NCBI GenBank assembly: GCA_013349405.1
Contig: DUZS01000021.1
Location: forward strand, 1-64,000
Length of the DNA: 64,000 nt
Origin: Desulfuromonadales bacterium
Lineage (GTDB): Bacteria > Desulfobacterota > Desulfuromonadia > Geobacterales > Pseudopelobacteraceae
Reading direction: 5' to 3'
This document shows, piece by piece, positions 18,187 through 26,567 of the stretch. The notes under the pieces were generated by a model. It made no database searches and was not told the origin of the DNA. It saw only the letters and a program-made list of their open reading frames with translations. A program made the translations under genes and the position numbers. Every line of letters begins with the position of its first letter. The first letter of the stretch is position 1.

Positions 18187-18261
18187 GCGGGAATAACTCA
18201 GTGGTAGAGTGCAACCTTCCCAAGGTTGAGGTCGCGAGTTCGAATCTCGTTTCCCGCTCCA
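18187..18261 (+). tRNA. tRNA-Gly (anticodon CCC)
   Basis: The cloverleaf is complete: acceptor GCGGGAA paired with TTCCCGC, D arm ACTC/GAGT, anticodon stem CAACC/GGTTG with loop TTCCCAA, T arm GCGAG/CTCGT around TTCGAAT, and an encoded CCA end. The loop gives anticodon CCC. The last 23 bases of the gene are the start of a 25-bp sequence repeated at 26543-26567, so the gene is the integration target of the element to its right and is rebuilt at the left junction. Confidence 0.97.
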
Positions 18262-18263
18262 AA
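18239..18263 (+). repeat. Left attachment repeat (attL) in tRNA-Gly
   Basis: A 25-bp sequence from the T loop to three bases past the CCA is identical to 26543-26567. The location at the 3' end of a tRNA gene, next to a tyrosine integrase pointing toward it, is the standard layout of an integrative element. Confidence 0.93.
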
Positions 18264-18277
18264 ATTACGCTTTAAAT

Positions 18278-19594
18278 TCAGGATGTTATCTGGATGTTGT
18301 CCCGACTGCCCCCGAAACTGACCCCATGAGTCAGTAGCGGGGACAGTTTTTTTTCGGGTTTAATCAGAAAATCAACGCCAAAATAGCGGATAATATCATC
18401 CACATCATCTTCCAAATCTTCCACGTAATCCCCGTAAACCTGATACACCATCTGCTTGCTTGAATGCCCCATCAGACTCACCAGCTTCATTGGATTCATG
18501 CCGATAGTCAGTGCCCAGCCGCAGAAGGTATGCCGTGTGCTGTAGGGCGTCTTATAGGCAATCTGTGAATCAGTCAGGGCTTTGTTCCAAGCAATCTTTC
18601 TAAACGAGTTGCCGTTGAACGGGCTGTTATCATCCATAGGAAAGAGATGGAGTGAATCTGGGCATTGCTTCTGAATCTGTGCTAACACCCTTTTTATTGC
18701 CTCGGTCATTGGAATGCGGCGGAATCGAAACTGATTCTTCAGCATATCTTGTTCACGCTTCAAGACTATTGACCGTTGCACCTTGATACTGCGTTCCGAA
18801 ACATCACTCTTTTGCAACCCTGCCATTTCGCTGGCTGACAGGCCGGTCATGACGAGAAATTCGACGTGTGGTCTGTAGAACTCCGGGATACATGCCAAAA
18901 AATGCATCCATTCAGAATATCGGAACACTTTATCATTGGGAATGCGTCGTTTTACCGGAAAATGCTTTTTGATAGTTTCGAACGGATTCCGTACATTCCA
19001 GCGATGCTGGTCTGCGGCATCTTCCCAAATGCGGCGCAGAGGGATGAAAATATTCTGTATGCGCTGGCGTGAAAGAGGCTCTCCCTTTCGCGGACCCGAT
19101 TCTTTCTTCATACCTTCGATGAAAGTTTGCAATTCCAAGCTGGTGATATTGTAAAAATTCATGCGTTTGAAGTATGGCAGAATCCTCGACTGTATTGCTG
19201 ATTCATAGAGTTTCAGCTTTGATTGTGACGTAATGGTCGGCAGAACCCGCTTCATCCACTCTTTGGCATACTCACCAAAATTTACATGCTGAGGTTCAGG
19301 GCTGAATTGTTGCCCTTCCAGCTCCGTGAAAAACTTCTTTTCCTTGCGGGACGCGCCGGGGAACGCTTCGGCAAATCTGAAAGTGCGCTCTTCGATTTTC
19401 TGCATATATTTGTCAATGAGCGAGCGAACTTGAGCGCGGTTTTGCGGGTTGTCGTCAAGTCCGGTACTTTTGGTGATACGAATACCGTGATAGTAAAAGT
19501 CAACATACAGCTTTTCAGAAATTTTACGCCTTTTGATGGTGCCCCCTCTATGAAGGGGTGCATGCAACGATACTGCACTTGTTACTTTATTCAT
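18278..19594 (-). CDS. Tyrosine recombinase / integrase of the tRNA-Gly element
   Basis: The 438-residue protein has an N-terminal arm-binding domain (GTIKRRKISEKLYVDFYYHGI, like DUF3596), a SAM-like core-binding domain (about 105-215), and a C-terminal catalytic domain. Visible are STRHTF, the LMGHSSKQMV box with His, and the nucleophile Tyr in YQVYGDYVE. Two usual active-site positions differ: TGLR of box I is TGLSASEM, so the first Arg is Ser, and the His of HxxR is Tyr (YSTR), which is common in relatives. AGGAAA lies upstream of the ATG. The gene ends 15 bases from the left repeat and points at it. It probably mediates integration and excision; the Ser change makes activity worth testing. 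Confidence 0.92.
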   Translation of the reverse strand: MNKVTSAVSLHAPLHRGGTIKRRKISEKLYVDFYYHGIRITKSTGLDDNPQNRAQVRSLIDKYMQKIEERTFRFAEAFPGASRKEKKFFTELEGQQFSPEPQHVNFGEYAKEWMKRVLPTITSQSKLKLYESAIQSRILPYFKRMNFYNITSLELQTFIEGMKKESGPRKGEPLSRQRIQNIFIPLRRIWEDAADQHRWNVRNPFETIKKHFPVKRRIPNDKVFRYSEWMHFLACIPEFYRPHVEFLVMTGLSASEMAGLQKSDVSERSIKVQRSIVLKREQDMLKNQFRFRRIPMTEAIKRVLAQIQKQCPDSLHLFPMDDNSPFNGNSFRKIAWNKALTDSQIAYKTPYSTRHTFCGWALTIGMNPMKLVSLMGHSSKQMVYQVYGDYVEDLEDDVDDIIRYFGVDFLIKPEKKLSPLLTHGVSFGGSRDNIQITS

Positions 19595-19670: not shown

Positions 19671-19934
19671 TCAATAGTCCAGATTGATTATTTGCCGATT
19701 CTTTCCCGGTCGCACCGGCGAAACTTCCGTTTCAACACATGCAGCGGAAAGCGACGCCAGTAGTTCAATGCTCCAAGGGATACGAACGGTCTTGCCGATT
19801 TTGAAATAATGAATTCCTTGAATCATCTTATTGCTGGCGATCCATGAAAAAACAGTGGAGCGCCCGACGTGAAACCGCTTGGCAAACTGTTCCACCGTAA
19901 GCAGTTCAGGCACAGATGATGGTGATGGGGACAT
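19671..19934 (-). CDS. Excisionase-like helix-turn-helix protein
   Basis: The 87-residue protein carries a MerR/AlpA-like winged HTH (LLTVEQFAKRFHVGRSTVFSW, then GIHYFKIGKTVRIPWS), the fold of small recombination directionality factors. The ATG at 19934 has a clear GGAGG five bases upstream, which rejects a longer frame. It lies immediately upstream of the integrase in the same direction, the usual place for an excisionase. It could alternatively be a transcriptional regulator of the element. Confidence 0.75.
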   Translation of the reverse strand: MSPSPSSVPELLTVEQFAKRFHVGRSTVFSWIASNKMIQGIHYFKIGKTVRIPWSIELLASLSAACVETEVSPVRPGKNRQIINLDY

Positions 19935-20104
19935 ACTACCTCCGGCAACTACAACCCTGCATTGCAGCAGGGGAAAACAGGTTATCGAAATGCTACTGGC
20001 CTGTTCCTTTTTCCAGATACCTCCCCCCAATCTCAGAGGTGCTGGAAAAACTTCCGGCTGTTCAGTTAGCCGTTAGGGGTGAACCGCTCGAATGGCGGTT
20101 CCTT

Positions 20105-20174: not shown

Positions 20175-21047
20175 TTATTTCGTATAGTGCTTCAACTTCT
20201 CACAATCGAAGTGGCCGGCCTCTTCTATCAGTTGTTTTTTTGCGTCATCCCGAGACGTTTTTTCCGGCATATTCTTAATGTCGGTGTACCGCTCCCGAAT
20301 GTGTTCACGTCTGAGACAGTGGCTGTTGGCGTGATTTGCCTTTGTGCCGCCCAGATTACGAATTGCATTCAGTTGTTTCCAGTACCCCTGTTTAAGGGAT
20401 AAATGCGCCGGAATAATGCCCGGTGTTCCTTGAACGGTTTTTATTGCATTGACCTTTTCAAGGATTGCCCGCTGTTCGCCGGTAGTGATTTCGACACGAC
20501 GTTCAAGAGCGTTTTTAGTAAAACCGGCCGGGATGCGTAGATAATCTTTACCGTCAATATGCTCAACCTTGTTAGAACCAAGCGATTCTTTGAGCCGCAA
20601 GCCGAACCGTTCTTGCATCTCAAATGCGACACCCTGCCAATCGGTTTTGGCGTAGAGTGCTGCCTTGATTTCAGCGAGTCGTTCAAAGTTTGATGGTGTT
20701 TCGCCATTTTTGAAACGGTCGCTGTTGCTTCTGGTTGCTCCCAGTTCATCATTCGTTTTGACGATATGTTCTTTTCCGATGGCCGCAGATAACACCCGTA
20801 AAGCTGTTACATACCCTTGCAGGGTAGAAGGGGCAAGCTGCCGATCTTCCCGCAAGTGGCGGACAAAGGAATCCACATGTTTCGTCTTCATGTTAGAAAT
20901 ATCGTTCAAACCCTGCCGAGCCATAAAACGCCCGATAGTTTTGAGATTGGCTAAACGTTTTTGCATAGTTAAAGATGACAGGCTGTGATTTTTGCCAACT
21001 CTGTCAAGTGTTTGTCTGACCAACTTATGCTCATGACTTTTACTCAT
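20175..21047 (-). CDS. Second recombinase-like protein (Integrase_1 type)
   Basis: This 290-residue protein has an N-terminal SAM-like domain (about 25-100) and a C-terminal domain of the family known as phage integrase N-terminal plus Integrase_1. Catalytic-type residues are in place: Arg in FGLRLKESL, HxxR in SHCLRREHIRERY, His in EAGHFD and a late Tyr in KHYTK close to the C-terminus. AGGAGG precedes the ATG. It is therefore a plausible active tyrosine recombinase, distinct from the main integrase, and transcribed in the same direction toward the left end. Its target site is unknown; the dyad-rich region directly upstream is a candidate. Confidence 0.85.
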   Translation of the reverse strand: MSKSHEHKLVRQTLDRVGKNHSLSSLTMQKRLANLKTIGRFMARQGLNDISNMKTKHVDSFVRHLREDRQLAPSTLQGYVTALRVLSAAIGKEHIVKTNDELGATRSNSDRFKNGETPSNFERLAEIKAALYAKTDWQGVAFEMQERFGLRLKESLGSNKVEHIDGKDYLRIPAGFTKNALERRVEITTGEQRAILEKVNAIKTVQGTPGIIPAHLSLKQGYWKQLNAIRNLGGTKANHANSHCLRREHIRERYTDIKNMPEKTSRDDAKKQLIEEAGHFDCEKLKHYTK

Positions 21048-21430
21048 AAATTCCTCCTGCTTTCTGGTTGATTTCGGGATTATTGAACAGCAATGGTGCG
21101 TAATCCCAAAAAGGAGCCGCCGCGACCGGAACGGCGAGTGGTGTGTTGAGTGTATGCAGCCTTAACCAACAGCGTTTCTGGGTACTCATTCCAGATGCCC
21201 TGTTGAAACGTCCCATTCATCAATCAAGATGAAGCCCTTTAAAGGGATACAGACGCGGCCATACTTCGTAATAAATTACGAAGCCGGTGTCTTTGCGTTG
21301 CACAAAGTAAAACAGGCGGGAGGTACTACAATTTTTGTCGCTTGCTAATCGTCGATTGTAAATTTTGTGGGGATTGTTCGATTTGTCGAAAATATGCGGG
21401 GTTTATCAATATGTGGAAATTGCGAAGGCG

Positions 21431-21477
21431 CGGAGCGTCTGTTTGCTATTGCGCTTGGCGCGCAAACAGACGCTCCG
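21431..21477. repeat. Perfect 16-bp inverted repeat
   Basis: Arms 21431-21446 and 21462-21477 are exact reverse complements with a 15-base GC-rich loop. No T tract follows on either strand, so it is not a standard terminator. A recombinase, relaxase or replication initiator site is possible. Confidence 0.75.
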
Positions 21478-22237
21478 CTGATTGGGACTCTACGTTTCCG
21501 CTATCGCTTCAACTCCGTGTCCCAAGACTGGATCAAAGGCGACTGAACCCGACTGTGACCAGAATGGGGGGGTGTGAAAGCGATTATGCGGGTTGATTGG
21601 GTGGCGGTGGCTGCCTCTGGACGTTACAAAAAAGTTTGTAACGAATAATTCAAAGACACAGAGCCGTATTGAAATGTTTTGAAATTGATATTGTGCGTGA
21701 ATTTAAAAAAGGTGGGGTGACGTGTGACCGGGACATAAAACGGATAGGGCGGACGCACGTCTGCTATGGAACTAATAGTTTAATAGAAGCCGGTAGCTTG
21801 TTGCTAACAAAAGTCAGGTCTCGAAAGTGGAAGAAAAATGTTCACAACCTGAAGGGACGCCCCAGGCTGTTTTTTTCATTAAGTACGAGGTAACAATATA
21901 TGATTATTTTTAATAAATCTACAAAAAAATGCGTGCTGAGTAAAAAATAGCTCAACAATAATAATACTATATAGACAAAAGACGTTTTAATGTGATATTC
22001 GGCTAATATGTAACATATTAAAATATGTGCAGAATTATAGCATCTGGCAAAGCGTAAAAATGTTAGCGAATCGCTGGCTGAACTGTCTTATTTCAATCCA
22101 AAATTAAAAACATATTTCACACATAAGAACATAGAGCGGGTTTAGACAGGCCGTTAAGTGTGTGTTTCTTGGGGAGGGGGGCGGGATACTTGCCCGTGCT
22201 ATCCGTGGACCATTACCACGGGAGCGCGGAAGGTTTT

Positions 22238-22389
22238 GTTTCTTGCCGTTGTTTCTTGGATTCTGTTTTTTAAGTTTATTAGCGGGTGGGCGTTGCGGCG
22301 GAGCCGGTTTCTTGCCCATCCGCTGTTTCTTGTTGTTGTTTTTTGGTGTTGTTTCTTGAATTCGTTTTTTGCTTTTGTTTCTTGTCGGT
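22238..22389. repeat. T-rich 13-bp-periodic repeat array (iteron-like)
   Basis: The core GTTTCTTG or GTTTTTTG starts at 22325, 22338, 22351, 22364 and 22377, exactly every 13 bases, with the C and T forms alternating. A second group starts at 22238 and 22251 (13 apart), with a relaxed copy at 22265. Single cores occur at 22164 and 22307. Because 13 is not a multiple of 3, the array cannot be a simple coding repeat. Tandem short repeats of this length resemble iterons or DNA-unwinding 13-mers, or a protein-binding array. Confidence 0.7.
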
Positions 22390-22509
22390 TGTTATGCCGT
22401 TCTGAGCGGTTTTATGGAGCGGTTTGAGGGCAAGCGAGAATTGCCGAAAAAGTGGAAGGAATACCAAATCAAAAGCGTATCGAAGCAGGTTATAGTTTTT
22501 TGTCCCCCA

Positions 22510-22863
22510 TCACACCACCCCCAAAGACAGTTTTTTGGTTTTGATTTCAGGCGGCATACAGGCAGCTGTAATTTCCGCCATGAGTATCAACACATAACGG
22601 CAACTCATATCACACCACGCTTCACTCCACGGCGTTCCACTCTGTTCCGTTACGGTGGCGTCATATTCGCCCAGGCTGAGAGGCTGTCTGACAAACCGGC
22701 GAAAGGATGCCGGATTTCCAGACAATACCAACCAGGCAAGAAACAAAACGCCTGCTGCTGGCGGTATGATCCGCGCACAACCGACACGATGAGGCCGCGA
22801 CGGTTGACCGCTCCGGTGTCGATGATTTCGGCGTATTGTTTCCCCAAGAGCGAAAGGCGTCAT
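22510..22863 (-). other. Uncertain ORF, 117 residues
   Basis: The minus strand is open here and contains a hydrophobic stretch (AAGVLFLAWLVLSG) followed by protein-like text, but no ribosome binding site precedes the ATG, and the plus strand is also open across the same bases. I recognise neither reading. It may be a real small membrane protein, a relic, or chance. Confidence 0.2.
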
Positions 22864-23280
22864 ACATCACGCAACGAAGCCGCGTCATGTATGACAGAGG
22901 CGAAGGTGTCGGGTTTTATGCGTCCAGAAACGCATAATAAAGCCGGGAAGTGTGTTATTCGTAATGAGTCGCAATGCATCCTAAGAATATCTGTATTTGT
23001 GATTGACGCTGTCAGGTCGATAGGTTACAAATTGTTATGATTTAATAAAGTATGGATAAGGTACTTGTAAAGAGTATTTGAAAAATACCTGTGAAACGAT
23101 CCGAATAAATGTAATATTGCCAGAAATATTTATAGACTCCACATTTAATCAAAACGGTGGAGAAAATGGTGTAAATAGCAACATTACAATTTTATTTGAT
23201 CTGTCTATACCGTAGTTTTTGAGTGTTAGCCAGTTCCTCAACCGGCGATCTACGAATTGAACAAATGGAGATTGCACACA

Positions 23281-23571
23281 ATGATTGAACACGAAAAACA
23301 GTATGTCACGTTTATTCAGGCAAAAGGAGTTGGAAAAAATGACAAGATAGAAGGCGCTTCACCCCGCTCTTATCTTGGGTATCTCACCTCTGTGTCAGAA
23401 ATTCTTGATTTTAATATTTCACCACAAACGGTTAAAACCGATGATGATGTCAATAACATTCTCTCAAAATTAAAGAATCACAATACGATTAAGCGTGCAG
23501 ATAAAACGATTAGGAACTATGGCTCAGCACTCAAGAAATACGCTGAAATGGTGCAAGAACTGCGGTTATGA
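23281..23571 (+). CDS. Small protein with SAM-like (integrase N-terminal-like) helical domain
   Basis: This 96-residue protein reads as a four-helix SAM-like module: MIEHEKQYVTFI, SPRSYLGYLTSVSEIL, DDVNNILSKLKNH and KTIRNYGSALKKYAEMV. The last helix with its Asn-Tyr-x-Ala-Leu-x-x-Tyr pattern is common at the N-terminus of tyrosine recombinases and some restriction proteins. No catalytic part follows; the frame simply stops. GGAG precedes the ATG. It could be a stand-alone DNA-binding factor or a truncated larger protein. It is the first gene of the AT-rich cargo half. Confidence 0.5.
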   Translation: MIEHEKQYVTFIQAKGVGKNDKIEGASPRSYLGYLTSVSEILDFNISPQTVKTDDDVNNILSKLKNHNTIKRADKTIRNYGSALKKYAEMVQELRL

Positions 23572-23631: not shown

Positions 23632-24225
23632 ATGAACATAAGATTATTGACCGTTTTAATGATATTGGTTCTAGCTGTTACTAACGTTGGAGCGGCGGAC
23701 GACAAACCGACAACGCAAGAAAATGTTATTTTAGCTCTCATGCTGAGACAATCCCACCCTGATGGAGGTTACTTCGTAGTTTCTCCAGAGGCGAGGATCT
23801 CCGACATAGATGCTGGGGACTCTAAAGGAGTCAACCAGAGCAAAAAGTACATCGTAGAACATTTGCAAATTTCCGGGCTGGATATCGCCAAACTTGTTAA
23901 CAGGCTGTTTGAGCGCAATTTAAAGCCTGTACGCCAGTCGATTAGGTCATCACGTGAGGATGGCTACATTGTTGATTACGATGGAAAATATGGAAAGTAC
24001 TTCGAGAAGGGCGGAGGAGGGTGGGAGAAGTGGTACAAAGAAAACCCTAAAGCTCATGGTTTCACTATGCTTTCACTGCCAATTTATGACTTGAAAAACG
24101 GGGTTGTGCTAATATACAAAGGAGTCCAAGCTCAGGAACTCATGGGGGCGGGTTGGATAATTCTATACAAGTATGAAAATGGATTGCTCAGAGAGTTGAA
24201 AAAGGTGAATTTATGGGTTTCCTAG
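23632..24225 (+). CDS. Exported protein of unknown function (GGGGWEKWY motif)
   Basis: The 197-residue protein has a clear Sec signal (MNIRLLTVLMILVLAVTNVGA with cleavage near AA-DD). The mature part begins with FVVSPEARISD, has a central YIVDYDGKYGKYFEKGGGGWEKWYKENPKAHGF region (motif positions about 113-145), and ends in short beta strands (GVVLIYKGVQ, WIILYKYENGLL). There is no lipobox and no catalytic motif that I recognise. It begins about 60 bases after the SAM-like gene and has AGAGAG before the ATG. Composition is AT-rich compared with the chromosome, consistent with transfer. Confidence 0.7.
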   Translation: MNIRLLTVLMILVLAVTNVGAADDKPTTQENVILALMLRQSHPDGGYFVVSPEARISDIDAGDSKGVNQSKKYIVEHLQISGLDIAKLVNRLFERNLKPVRQSIRSSREDGYIVDYDGKYGKYFEKGGGGWEKWYKENPKAHGFTMLSLPIYDLKNGVVLIYKGVQAQELMGAGWIILYKYENGLLRELKKVNLWVS

Positions 24226-24296
24226 TTCGATAGGGGATGATGGTTAATACTGCTAACTGCTCAAATTATAAAACTGAATTTATGGAGTGACACTAA

Positions 24297-24650
24297 ATGC
24301 GACTTCAAGGGAAAATTGCAGCTCTATTTGTTGTATTTGGTTTTTCAATAACTGGATGTGAAAATGCCGAACAGAAAAAATTGCATGAGCTAAATGTAAA
24401 AGATGTCCTTTCTGATGCGGCGATCGCTTGCATTAATAATCAATATTCAAAAGGGATAAAATTGGCAACAGAAGCTATTGTTGAGGCAAAAAAAGCAGGG
24501 ATCGAAGATTATGAATTTACTGGTTATCATGTACGAGCTGGATGTTATTTAGAATCTAATGATAAATCAAATGCGAAGTCAGATTATGATGTAGCTTGTA
24601 AAAGAGGAGATACTTTTTCTTGTAAAAAGTTATCGGAATTGAACATGTAG
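24297..24650 (+). CDS. Small lipoprotein with Sel1/TPR-like helices
   Basis: A lipoprotein signal ends in the lipobox ITGC (Cys about residue 21). The 97-residue mature part is helical, with AIACINNQYSKGIKLATEAI and a second pair ending YDVACKRGDTFSCKKL, a text typical of TPR or Sel1-like repeats. It probably sits at the inner or outer membrane facing the periplasm and binds protein. It is the second of five exported products encoded in a row. The role is unknown. Confidence 0.7.
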   Translation: MRLQGKIAALFVVFGFSITGCENAEQKKLHELNVKDVLSDAAIACINNQYSKGIKLATEAIVEAKKAGIEDYEFTGYHVRAGCYLESNDKSNAKSDYDVACKRGDTFSCKKLSELNM

Positions 24651-24736
24651 TCAAAAATAATATTGGTTGGTGAGGTGCGCTACAGGTTGGACTGTTTTTG
24701 CGGATAATTAATCAAAATATAGAATTGGATAAAGGA

Positions 24737-25366
24737 ATGATTGCATTGAAAACTTACATAAGTTTCACTGTCGCGATAGTAGTTTATATTTGTCTTATAC
24801 ACGAGGCAATTTCTGCTACAGTTTATTTTAAAGACGGCACCATAGAAAAGGGGTCAGCAGTTTGGTTGAATGATAATGTTGTATCACTTAGTCGAAATGG
24901 CGAAGTTTGGGAGTTTACAAAAGATGAGGTGTTGTTAGAAAAAACAATCCGTGAAAACAATCTGAATGAAATGACACTGGTCCCACTACAAGAAAAACTT
25001 CCGCAGCATACCACGAAAAAGAATAAACAAAAAAATGTTACGGCTAAATCTTCTCAAGGTAATAAAACTAAAGATCAGAATCAAACTGAGATAAAACAAC
25101 CGAGCAAGGTATGGCCAAATGAGCAACAGTTAGCCGAAATGGAGTCATATAGAAGATTTTATGAAGAAGATGCTCGAAAAAGAAAAGCTGAAAGATCAAG
25201 TTATAGCTCTGGTGGCTACTCGGATACAGGGACTATAGGCCCTGTACGGCCCATACGTGGAACTACTGTAAGTGAAACACAAAGAATGTGCGCTGGAGGT
25301 TGTGCTTATCTTAATGGAACAAATGAGCAAATGGCATGCTATGCTGCCTGTACCCGTGGTAATTGA
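24737..25366 (+). CDS. Exported protein with C-terminal twin CX3C motif
   Basis: The signal segment (YISFTVAIVVYICLIHEAISA) leads into a small beta domain (TVYFKDGTIEKGSAVWLNDN) of a type seen in other periplasmic proteins. A Lys/Gln/Thr-rich linker (about 85-130), a charged helix (EMESYRRFYEEDARKRKAER) and a Gly/Ser segment follow. The last 25 residues hold CAGGC, eleven residues, then CYAAC: a CX3C-X11-CX3C pair able to form two disulfides across a helical hairpin. The ATG at 24737 sits right after AAAGGA; a TTG nine bases on would have better spacing. Function unknown. Confidence 0.65.
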   Translation: MIALKTYISFTVAIVVYICLIHEAISATVYFKDGTIEKGSAVWLNDNVVSLSRNGEVWEFTKDEVLLEKTIRENNLNEMTLVPLQEKLPQHTTKKNKQKNVTAKSSQGNKTKDQNQTEIKQPSKVWPNEQQLAEMESYRRFYEEDARKRKAERSSYSSGGYSDTGTIGPVRPIRGTTVSETQRMCAGGCAYLNGTNEQMACYAACTRGN

Positions 25367-25395
25367 GATAGAAATATGAAAAAATGGGGGGATAA

Positions 25396-26067
25396 ATGAA
25401 AGTTGTTAGTCGTTGCATGATGTTATTGTTAGCTTTACTGCTGTGTTCGTGTTCAAATGATAAAGAATCTGTAATAAAGTACAATGCTCAAGTGTCTAAG
25501 GTTTTGGCTATGAACAAGGATGTATTTAAAGCAGCAGCGGCTACTATGGGCGCAAATGGTGATTTAACTCCTGAGCTACGTGAGGCAACAGAATTACTTA
25601 CGGCATTTGGGACAGGCGTGAGAGATAAAGACATGTATCTTCGGTTATCGCTCCTATTAGGGTGGCAACAAGCAAATTATATATCTCCATTCAGCAAAGC
25701 CATAGATAAATTAAAGTTAGAAATGACTGCTTTGAGCGAAATACAAAAACAAATAAAAAATGAAGAAATTAAAAGCAAAACGGGTCTCTTAAATGAAGCT
25801 ATATTAAAATATATAAAAAGTAACGAAAGTTTATATTTTGCACAGACAACACCAATAAATAACATGATGATGTATTTCTTGGATTTGACCAAGGGAAAGC
25901 CAATCGTGGAAAATGATGTTTGGCGTCTTAATGGGGATCTTAAAAAATATATGGACGATACTGTTACTAATGTTAATGAAATAATAATTGATATGAAAAA
26001 TATTGAACCGACGTCACAAAATCTTAAAAATACTTTGAGTAGCAAAAAGTACCCAAGTGAATTCTGA
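25396..26067 (+). CDS. Helical lipoprotein of unknown function
   Basis: A type II signal ends LLLCSC, with the lipid Cys near residue 19. The remaining 204 residues are predicted mainly helical, with Lys/Glu-rich amphipathic stretches (KLKLEMTALSEIQKQIKN and KKYMDDTVTNVNEIIIDMK) and no catalytic motif that I recognise. GGGGG followed by ATAA precedes the ATG. It is AT-rich like its neighbours and follows the twin CX3C gene by about 30 bases, so co-transcription is likely. Confidence 0.7.
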   Translation: MKVVSRCMMLLLALLLCSCSNDKESVIKYNAQVSKVLAMNKDVFKAAAATMGANGDLTPELREATELLTAFGTGVRDKDMYLRLSLLLGWQQANYISPFSKAIDKLKLEMTALSEIQKQIKNEEIKSKTGLLNEAILKYIKSNESLYFAQTTPINNMMMYFLDLTKGKPIVENDVWRLNGDLKKYMDDTVTNVNEIIIDMKNIEPTSQNLKNTLSSKKYPSEF

Positions 26068-26138
26068 ACCGAGAAATATGATTGCTTAATTTTGCTTAGA
26101 TCATAAAACAATATCTGTCGTCAGCATGAAAGGCCCAC

Positions 26139-26375
26139 ATGCACCGATATGTTACCGCCATAACGCTATTTGCCATTTTTCTCTTTAGCGTTTCTTTCAG
26201 TGAAGCCAAAACCGTGTGGGTCAAAGGGAAATTACAAAAGGACGGCACATATGTAAAGCCGCACTACAAAAGCTCACCAGACAAGTCCCGTTACAATAAC
26301 TATGGCACTAAAGGAAATGTCAATCCATATACCGGTAAAAAAGGAACTAAAGATCCTGTGAAGCAAAAATACTAG
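26139..26375 (+). CDS. Small secreted protein with basic repeat-like tail
   Basis: The 78-residue precursor has a signal peptide (about 1-23, ending FSEA). Its mature part is very basic and Tyr/Gly-rich: VKGKLQKDGTYVKPHYKSS and NYGTKGNVNPYTGKKGTKD. This DGTYVKPHYRS...NVNPYTG pattern occurs in many small secreted bacterial proteins without assigned function. It is the last gene of the element, about 170 bases from the right repeat. An envelope or nucleic-acid-binding role is possible but unsupported. Confidence 0.65.
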   Translation: MHRYVTAITLFAIFLFSVSFSEAKTVWVKGKLQKDGTYVKPHYKSSPDKSRYNNYGTKGNVNPYTGKKGTKDPVKQKY

Positions 26376-26463
26376 GGGGGAATTGTTAGTCCTATGATGT
26401 TAGTACTGCCCCCACATTGACCCCTAACAGGTTGAAACTGATTGAAATAGACTGGACTTAACT

Positions 26464-26482
26464 GGACTAACTACCGACGGAA
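26464..26482. repeat. Putative integrase arm-type site, right copy
   Basis: The reverse complement matches 19621-19638 except for one extra base. Related GGACT(T)AAC words lie next to it. The unit at 26406-26424 also resembles 18306-18325 in direct orientation (CTGCCCCC and TGACCCC blocks shared). Confidence 0.5.
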
Positions 26483-26542
26483 TACGTACTAACTAATTGA
26501 TTTATTGGTGTATTGTGGAAAATGTTAAAATGCTCTCAAATT

Positions 26543-26567
26543 TTCGAATCTCGTTTCCCGCTCCAAA
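26543..26567 (+). repeat. Right attachment repeat (attR)
   Basis: This is the exact second copy of the 25-bp tRNA-Gly 3' end. It has no tRNA 5' half in front of it, so it marks the right end of the inserted element. Confidence 0.93.

Follow-up and report, generated by a model that had tools for sequence, protein, structure and literature searches.

The gene-free 2.2 kb (positions 21048-23280) of an integrative element at a tRNA-Gly gene contains a hairpin-rich segment, module A, that is tied to the second tyrosine recombinase of the element. Because the letters of its hairpins change in matching pairs, and because a comparable stretch lies beside the same type of recombinase in many elements, the region is probably a working control site and perhaps the place where DNA transfer begins. 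Specifically, module A may be a mobilization or processing origin worked by the second recombinase, a reading to which we assign a probability of about 0.37. An initial annotation, made from the letters of the window (the whole stretch of 64,000 nucleotides analysed here), had proposed an origin, transfer or control locus for the entire region. The covariation and the link to the recombinase support this, but the region is modular rather than one unit: it comprises at least three modules that differ in distribution, of which module A alone is tied to the recombinase.

The window is contig C21 of a 3.43 Mb genome (60 contigs, 96% complete). The element spans approximately 8.3 kb and is flanked by perfect 25 bp att repeats that copy the 3' end of the tRNA (Table 1). 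Inward from the tRNA, the gene order is integrase, helix-turn-helix (HTH)/excisionase-like gene and second tyrosine recombinase, followed by the gene-free region and then by cargo. As the initial annotation had it, the second recombinase is transcribed away from the region, and module A is placed head-on to its gene. The related genome G051 matches the final 162 bp (26406-26567) at 91% identity.

Table 1. Features of the element and of its gene-free region (positions are those of the window; a dot marks features without a strand).
Feature	Position	Strand	Remarks
tRNA-Gly(CCC), integration target	18187..18261	+	
Left att repeat, 25 bp	18239..18263	+	Same letters as 26543-26567
Integrase	18278..19594	-	PF00589, PF12167, PF14659; PHROG integrase
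Helix-turn-helix/excisionase-like protein	19671..20030	-	Matches under curated cut-offs
Second tyrosine recombinase	20175..21047	-	PF12834 N-terminal domain and catalytic residues
Module A, conserved hairpin-rich region coupled to second recombinase	21048..21880	.	Right end approximate
Stem GGGATTA/TAATCCC	21076..21107	.	By eye, covaries in G014, G019 (partly) and G023; missing in G064
Stem 1, GCCG/CGGC	21119..21135	.	GCCA/TGGC in G064
Motif GTTGAGTGTATGC	21145..21157	+	GTTGAGTGTAGGC in many distant relatives
Stem 2, outer and inner helices	21167..21205	.	Covarying; outer helix cells 83% paired
Stem 3, TTCATC/GATGAA	21216..21233	.	Covarying
Stem 5, CTTCGTAAT/ATTACGAAG	21264..21283	.	Both sides changed in 6 of 8 pairs counted
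Stem 6, CTTTG/CAAAG	21291..21307	.	Loop CGTTGCA
Motif GGCGGGA	21315..21321	+	By eye; GGAGGGA in several relatives
Hallmark hairpin	21430..21478	.	17 bp perfect arms, core GCGTCTGTTTG
Stem TTGGGAC/GTCCCAA	21482..21525	.	By eye; related stem twice in G014 and G019
AT-rich stretch	21890..22060	.	25% GC
Module B	22164..22412	.	GTTTCTTG 13 bp array and CCGTGG/CCACGG hairpin
Module C	22535..22955	.	Conserved in other elements
Module C hairpin GTCATACAT/ATGTATGAC	22859..22895	.	By eye, unrelated complementary arms instead in L016 and L029
Module C hairpin TTATGCGT/ACGCATAA	22916..22937	.	
96-aa ORF	23281..23571	+	Weak SAM_4 match (E 0.004, below cut-off); start 23257/23281
Cargo ORFs, five	23632..26375	+	None at Pfam cut-off
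Right att repeat	26543..26567	+	

Perfect inverted repeats with arms of at least 6 bp and loops of up to 40 nt number 41 in the region, compared with a mean of 21.1 and a maximum of 34 in 200 dinucleotide shuffles. Raising the minimum arm to 7 bp leaves 12 (5.7 expected; two of 200 shuffles get there), while six have arms of at least 8 bp (1.4 expected) and four have arms of at least 9 bp (0.3 expected), counts that none of the 200 shuffles attained. Approximately half of the 6 bp arms are at chance level; the excess is nonetheless real and the dyads are under selection. The wealth of perfect dyads previously described, with arms of 6-16 bp, holds in this sense, except that the longest arm measures 17 bp, in the hairpin at 21430-21478. 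The reported AT-rich stretch (against 52% GC for the window) and 13 bp array (22324-22384, 4.7 copies, score 59) were both recovered. ORFs of up to 223 aa overlap on both strands; seven of them (71-223 aa) were scanned and gave no Pfam match at E ≤ 0.01, in line with the original description of the region as gene-free; that description needs correction at the right edge, where the weakly SAM_4-like ORF starts. A decayed gene or junk DNA was rejected because the stems covary and the seven scanned ORFs match nothing. Searches found no match to 21048-22535 or 22535-22960 in plasmid DNA, none to 21048-22960 in phage DNA, no relative in viral contigs apart from one weak one, and none among solved structures by sequence. 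No description of the region came up in literature searches on recombinase-linked non-coding RNAs, relaxases, PF12834/PF12835, covarying oriT sites, Geobacter islands, large RNAs or Frpo.

Module A was found together with the recombinase in G051, G014, G019 and G023, and in G064 up to approximately position 21480. Homology to the window stops at 21848 in G023, 22270 in G014, 22624 in G019 and 22955 in G051; at the G014 break, a gene that by eye encodes an IS66-type transposase follows (L063, G014 contig C100, left of 1703). The expectation of the initial annotation that the dyads would covary is borne out in relatives: the upstream regions of the window, G014, G019, G023 and G064 align and both arms of the stems change together. 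A hand-made alignment of these five elements, fitted by hand and biased towards structure, contains 38 pairs in seven helices with 96.7% of cells paired. Double-sided changes affect 19 of the 38 pairs (28 cells), which was not matched in any of 500 shuffles of this alignment (means of 83.4% paired, 7.0 pairs and 8.0 cells double-changed), and a control in which the partners were slid gave at most 44.5% paired. An unfitted MAFFT alignment of the same five sequences yielded 105 pairs in RNAalifold, 30 of them double-changed. The loop of stem 6 is near-constant (CATTGCA in G014, CGTTGCG in G064) although the letters of its stem vary. A covariance model of the block, R1, detects it in six of 147 related genomes, with E-values no higher than 4.4e-49 and the recombinase adjacent in every case. 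Three weaker matches were obtained (G014:C97, E 3.8e-6; G029, E 0.011; G076, E 0.015), the first of which lies inside a 727-aa ORF and is therefore taken as spurious. The motif between stems 1 and 2 could alternatively represent the promoter of the recombinase gene, which would read TACACT on the minus strand.

To gauge the distribution of this arrangement, the recombinase was used as a profile, which identified a homologue at E ≤ 1e-20 in 34 of 277 genomes of the class; in an even sample of the phylum, 18 of 395 genomes contain one at E ≤ 1e-8, with 15 of these at 1e-28 or weaker. Retaining loci that matched at the N-terminus and had 400 nt or more of upstream sequence, and dropping others, gave 35 distinct upstream regions. 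These were examined for a hallmark hairpin, defined as a perfect dyad (arm of at least 8 bp, loop of 3-40 nt) containing a GTC[T/A][C/G]TT-type core, a pattern written after the sequences had been seen. The hairpin is present in 29 of the 35 regions (six of six close and 23 of 29 distant relatives), or 16 of 21 clusters at approximately 70% identity; the other six regions have none by this dyad-plus-core test. Ten shuffles of all 35 regions gave none in 350, and 203 tiles of 900 nt from 20 loci gave 14 matches, all of them within the known regions. In 28 of the 29 regions the hairpin begins 291-430 nt from the start codon; the exception, L059 (660 nt), probably has a wrongly assigned start codon. 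A GTTGAGTGTAGGC-like motif occurs in 27 and 26 of the 35 regions by two patterns, which is weaker evidence because shuffles give 1-9 of 35 with the second pattern. Dyads with arms of at least 7 bp are more numerous than the shuffle mean in each of the 24 regions tested. Model R1 fails to recognise the distant upstream regions, and their relatedness is judged from the hairpin core, one motif and their position. The genome of the window encodes a further recombinase of the family, likewise accompanied by a hallmark hairpin (G000:C5:122281-123120; L094, L119). Overall, the link between the hallmark hairpin and PF12834-type recombinases is strong.

The second recombinase matches PF12834, an N-terminal SAM-like core-binding domain, at residues 12-95 (E 2.9e-6). 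PF12835 has no match in the window protein and is matched by four of the five relatives scanned, and residues R151, K178, H243, R246, H279 and Y288 are invariant in all 13 aligned sequences, including that of the window. A predicted structure of moderate quality (pLDDT 67, pTM 0.39) has Cre, IntI4, XerH and XerA as its nearest folds, with low TM-scores. Four named relatives from one scan belong to metagenome-assembled genomes of uncultured Geobacteraceae/Desulfuromonadales, and distant relatives with 23-28% identity are carried on plasmids. Rep-less small plasmids were considered as a precedent and rejected, as the three that were inspected, out of five small plasmids, each carry an annotated rep gene. 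A distant relative (27-28% identity) is also encoded on two conjugative plasmids that were typed with their own MOBH relaxase and therefore do not need the recombinase relative as a relaxase, which speaks against a relaxase role for the recombinase. These two, out of 13 Burkholderia/Cupriavidus plasmids, are the PRTRC plasmids pMOL28 and one of Burkholderia cenocepacia (L116, L117); the relative is preceded there by 1.1-1.5 kb without listed genes, SSB and primase/Toprim genes lie in the vicinity, and a dyad search found no hallmark in either.

Among 25 larger loci, a set that includes the spurious hit (L113), relatives of the window's integrase occur in nine, which leaves the second recombinase there free for another task. 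A tRNA gene of Gly, Met, Asn, Arg or Ser type lies within 15 of the 25. Phage integrases (10) are the commonest Pfam assignment among 92 neighbour proteins (of 135 listed), which also include serine recombinase domains, sigma-70 regions and Toprim (three each) and DUF3987, ArdC, RadC and N6 methylase domains (two each). ArdC- and RadC-type genes are typical of DNA that enters by conjugation, and their presence near relatives favours a mobilization reading. Against it, no type IV secretion family is found among the 25 commonest of the 76 Pfam families in these 92 proteins.

We propose a two-part module in which the second recombinase would be paired with approximately 0.4-0.8 kb of divergently placed, cis-acting DNA. 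Once single-stranded or extruded, this DNA would fold into ordered hairpins; the recombinase would bind the hairpin array and cut one strand via its catalytic tyrosine, and this cut would start the transfer (or processing) of the excised element. The integrase and the excisionase-like protein at the tRNA end would be responsible for integration and excision, and modules B and C would be optional additions on the cargo side. It is our inference that the element functions in the form of folded DNA, with module A as the target of the recombinase and the initiation of transfer as its action there. Three points favour initiation: an integrase is already present in the element; G051 and G023 retain the integrase, HTH gene, recombinase and module A but differ in cargo; and Salmonella genomic island 1 (SGI1) offers a precedent. 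Extended to the class, the proposal becomes tentative: the PF12834/PF12835 recombinases of its integrative elements might generally use a long folded-DNA locus to start single-strand transfer. It is equally doubtful, if conceivable, that such recombinase-linked origins, with ordered hairpins, a hallmark stem of the GCGTCTSTT..AASAGACGC type and a layout unlike those of MpsA, TcpM and MobK, form a widespread and undescribed class. Many integrative elements lack a recognisable relaxase, and their movement calls for an explanation. A mobilization module of this kind, if real, would explain a set of these relaxase-less elements, and its hairpin signature could be used to find more of them. Even if the locus serves as a resolvase site, in replication or as an RNA, such a series of ordered hairpins, tied to a single recombinase family across a bacterial class, is unusual and directly testable.

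SGI1 encodes a presumed relaxase that resembles a tyrosine recombinase, with an inverted-repeat oriT described upstream of its gene (PMC6414798, PMC9299015). This oriT is given as 125 bp (PMC6414798) and is reported to keep its structure despite sequence divergence (PMC8409611), and an sRNA encoded between mpsA and oriT is described as required (PMC9299015). The same source presents TcpM of pCW3 and MobK of pIGRK as tyrosine-recombinase-type relaxases with an upstream oriT, and describes MpsA, TcpM and MobK as having no core-binding domain (PMC9299015). The element studied here resembles SGI1 as described (mpsA, mpsB, oriT, sgm-sRNA) in combining a recombinase-like protein, an upstream non-coding region with inverted repeats and an integrase of its own, and its recombinase, like MpsA, possesses tyrosine recombinase catalytic residues. 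Structure is likewise conserved in module A, whose oriT role is putative; module A is, however, several times longer than the reported SGI1 oriT. A tyrosine-recombinase-type protein with an upstream locus is also shared with TcpM and MobK as published. In contrast to all three proteins, which were compared by description only, the window's recombinase has a core-binding domain. Unlike in SGI1, no conserved partner resembling MpsB (SAM_4) was found. For these two reasons the locus is not a member of the SGI1 type. The 96-aa SAM_4-like ORF was rejected as an MpsB analogue as it is not conserved: a comparison with the ORFs of 40 larger loci gave no relative, none was found beside the recombinase elsewhere, and its single other match in 147 related genomes (35%) is to a 372-aa frame on a different contig of G019. 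The absence of a core-binding domain from the three relaxases, together with the predicted nearest folds of the recombinase, all of them recombinases, argues against a relaxase reading.

These folds and the catalytic residues also suit a different role, in which the recombinase would recombine the hairpins themselves, as in integrons or resolvase systems, and so resolve multimers of the circular element or exchange its cargo. We regard such a folded recombination site as somewhat unlikely. It would account for the change of cargo beyond the region, where homology to the window ends, and for the distant relatives on plasmids, including the three small ones with annotated rep genes; dimer resolution is an ordinary task on plasmids. 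Integron attC sites are folded DNA in which structure is conserved rather than sequence, and IntI4 provides a further parallel between the integron integrase and this pairing of a tyrosine recombinase with folded DNA. Unlike attC sites, which form an array of repeated sites with cassettes, the region is single-copy (a genome search at E ≤ 0.001 gave no other), although contig C5 carries the further recombinase of the family with a hairpin of its own, and the exact hallmark core occurs nowhere in the window except in the two arms of the hallmark hairpin. Hairpin loop lengths vary between 3 and 39 nt, whereas the spacer of a recombinase site is fixed, and a recombinase core site was rejected for this reason. 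Moreover, the homology junctions differ in place, and the stems outnumber the needs of a core site.

An ordered series of stems with a conserved loop in stem 6 might also be expected of a structured non-coding RNA. Folded DNA and RNA were compared by their mismatches. Structures were predicted with G.U pairs forbidden, and mismatched cells were counted afterwards. A first pipeline (five groups, 25 regions) gave 22 G.T and 27 A.C cells, and a helix-filtered version (eight groups, 24 regions) gave 20 and 36, respectively, with 111 double changes. A single-mismatch control on E. coli rRNA produced too few cases (two G.T, no A.C), so RNase P of the same class was used as the control; the same scripts gave 71 G.T and 10 A.C in the first pipeline (30 sequences) and 199 and 49 in the helix-filtered one (twelve random sets of five, one of which gave 4 and 5). 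The ratios of the region and RNase P differ with a Fisher p of 2e-10, computed on cells that are not independent. Plus-strand RNA is unlikely on these counts, and folded DNA, of which equal numbers of G.T and A.C are expected, fits. One-mismatch hairpins in the 35 regions comprise 16 G.T, 21 A.C and 31 others, the part of module A past 21480 gives 4 G.T and 6 A.C, and module C alone gives 0 and 4, which is too few.

The excess of A.C over G.T in the helix-filtered counts (binomial p 0.044) would correspond to G.U pairs on the minus strand, so that a minus-strand RNA is possible, either as a leader of the recombinase or as a transfer-linked RNA comparable to the sgm-sRNA of SGI1. We consider this unlikely: the bias is weak, is partly due to the three-member L097 group (9:1) and is small in the first pipeline, whereas RNase P, with the same scripts, is strongly skewed. 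In addition, no Rfam 15 covariance model matches over the region, either in the window or in 20 relatives, and hits below the cut-off (E ≤ 1) belong to families of unrelated sRNAs, miRNAs, lncRNAs and viral RNAs and appear to be chance matches. The large ornate RNAs GOLLD, ROOL and OLE are linked to tRNAs and phages. The region shares with them the character of a large structured non-coding region in bacteria, but has no Rfam match and no G.U signature on the plus strand.

Modules B and C lead to the question of replication. Module B also occurs in L067 (2946-3181) and L068 (462-695), upstream of other genes. By eye, the gene that follows it in L067 resembles a DNA cytosine methyltransferase, and in L068 it precedes a BrnT/BrnA-like pair, near a sequence resembling the right att of the window. 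Module C matches approximately 20 other places in the genus and family, and in six of 13 larger loci (L069-L072, L074, L075) it lies one gene away from a Rep-like gene. The protein of L072 is a clear Rep_trans (PF02486, 1.9e-46), with a ribbon-helix-helix protein encoded by the intervening gene; the other five are related to it (hhalign probability 93%, E 3e-7), and the two of these that were scanned match no Pfam family. A small gene starting MKTRLILKPGQKGTK follows module C in L072 and L073, the L073 copy having a weak DUF5710 match, and an apparent remnant of this gene follows module C in L081.

The placement of module C by replication-initiator-like genes fits an origin. Module C may be a Rep_trans-type origin shared with other elements, in which case it may rely here on a partner acting in trans. 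Together with the AT-rich stretch, the 13 bp array and a DUF3987/Toprim protein encoded downstream of the L094 recombinase (similar proteins occur in L099 and L100), this would suit a replication origin, or single-strand origin, of the excised element. As an explanation of the region this is nevertheless improbable. No Rep_trans gene was found in the 96%-complete genome, nor was an L075-type protein in a search that had no positive control; module A follows the recombinase and not a Rep gene; and no recombinase of this family is present in the 13 module-C or two module-B larger loci.

The hairpins of module A also stand at a near-fixed distance upstream of the first gene of the leftward gene set and may resemble Frpo, but a single-strand promoter of the leading-region type, driving the recombinase-led genes after entry, is very improbable, as the stems vary freely in sequence, which a promoter would not allow.

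The element has two tyrosine recombinases, a feature that it shares with SE-type elements as described for SE-6945. SE-6945 differs in its four-gene intA-CDS2-intB-CDS4 core and its 19 bp imperfect terminal repeats; the main text of its description does not contain the word "tRNA", and the N-terminal region of its IntB is described as unusually long (PMC9345347). Finally, a c-di-GMP-I riboswitch was observed near one of the relatives, on the minus strand of L159 (1132-1215).
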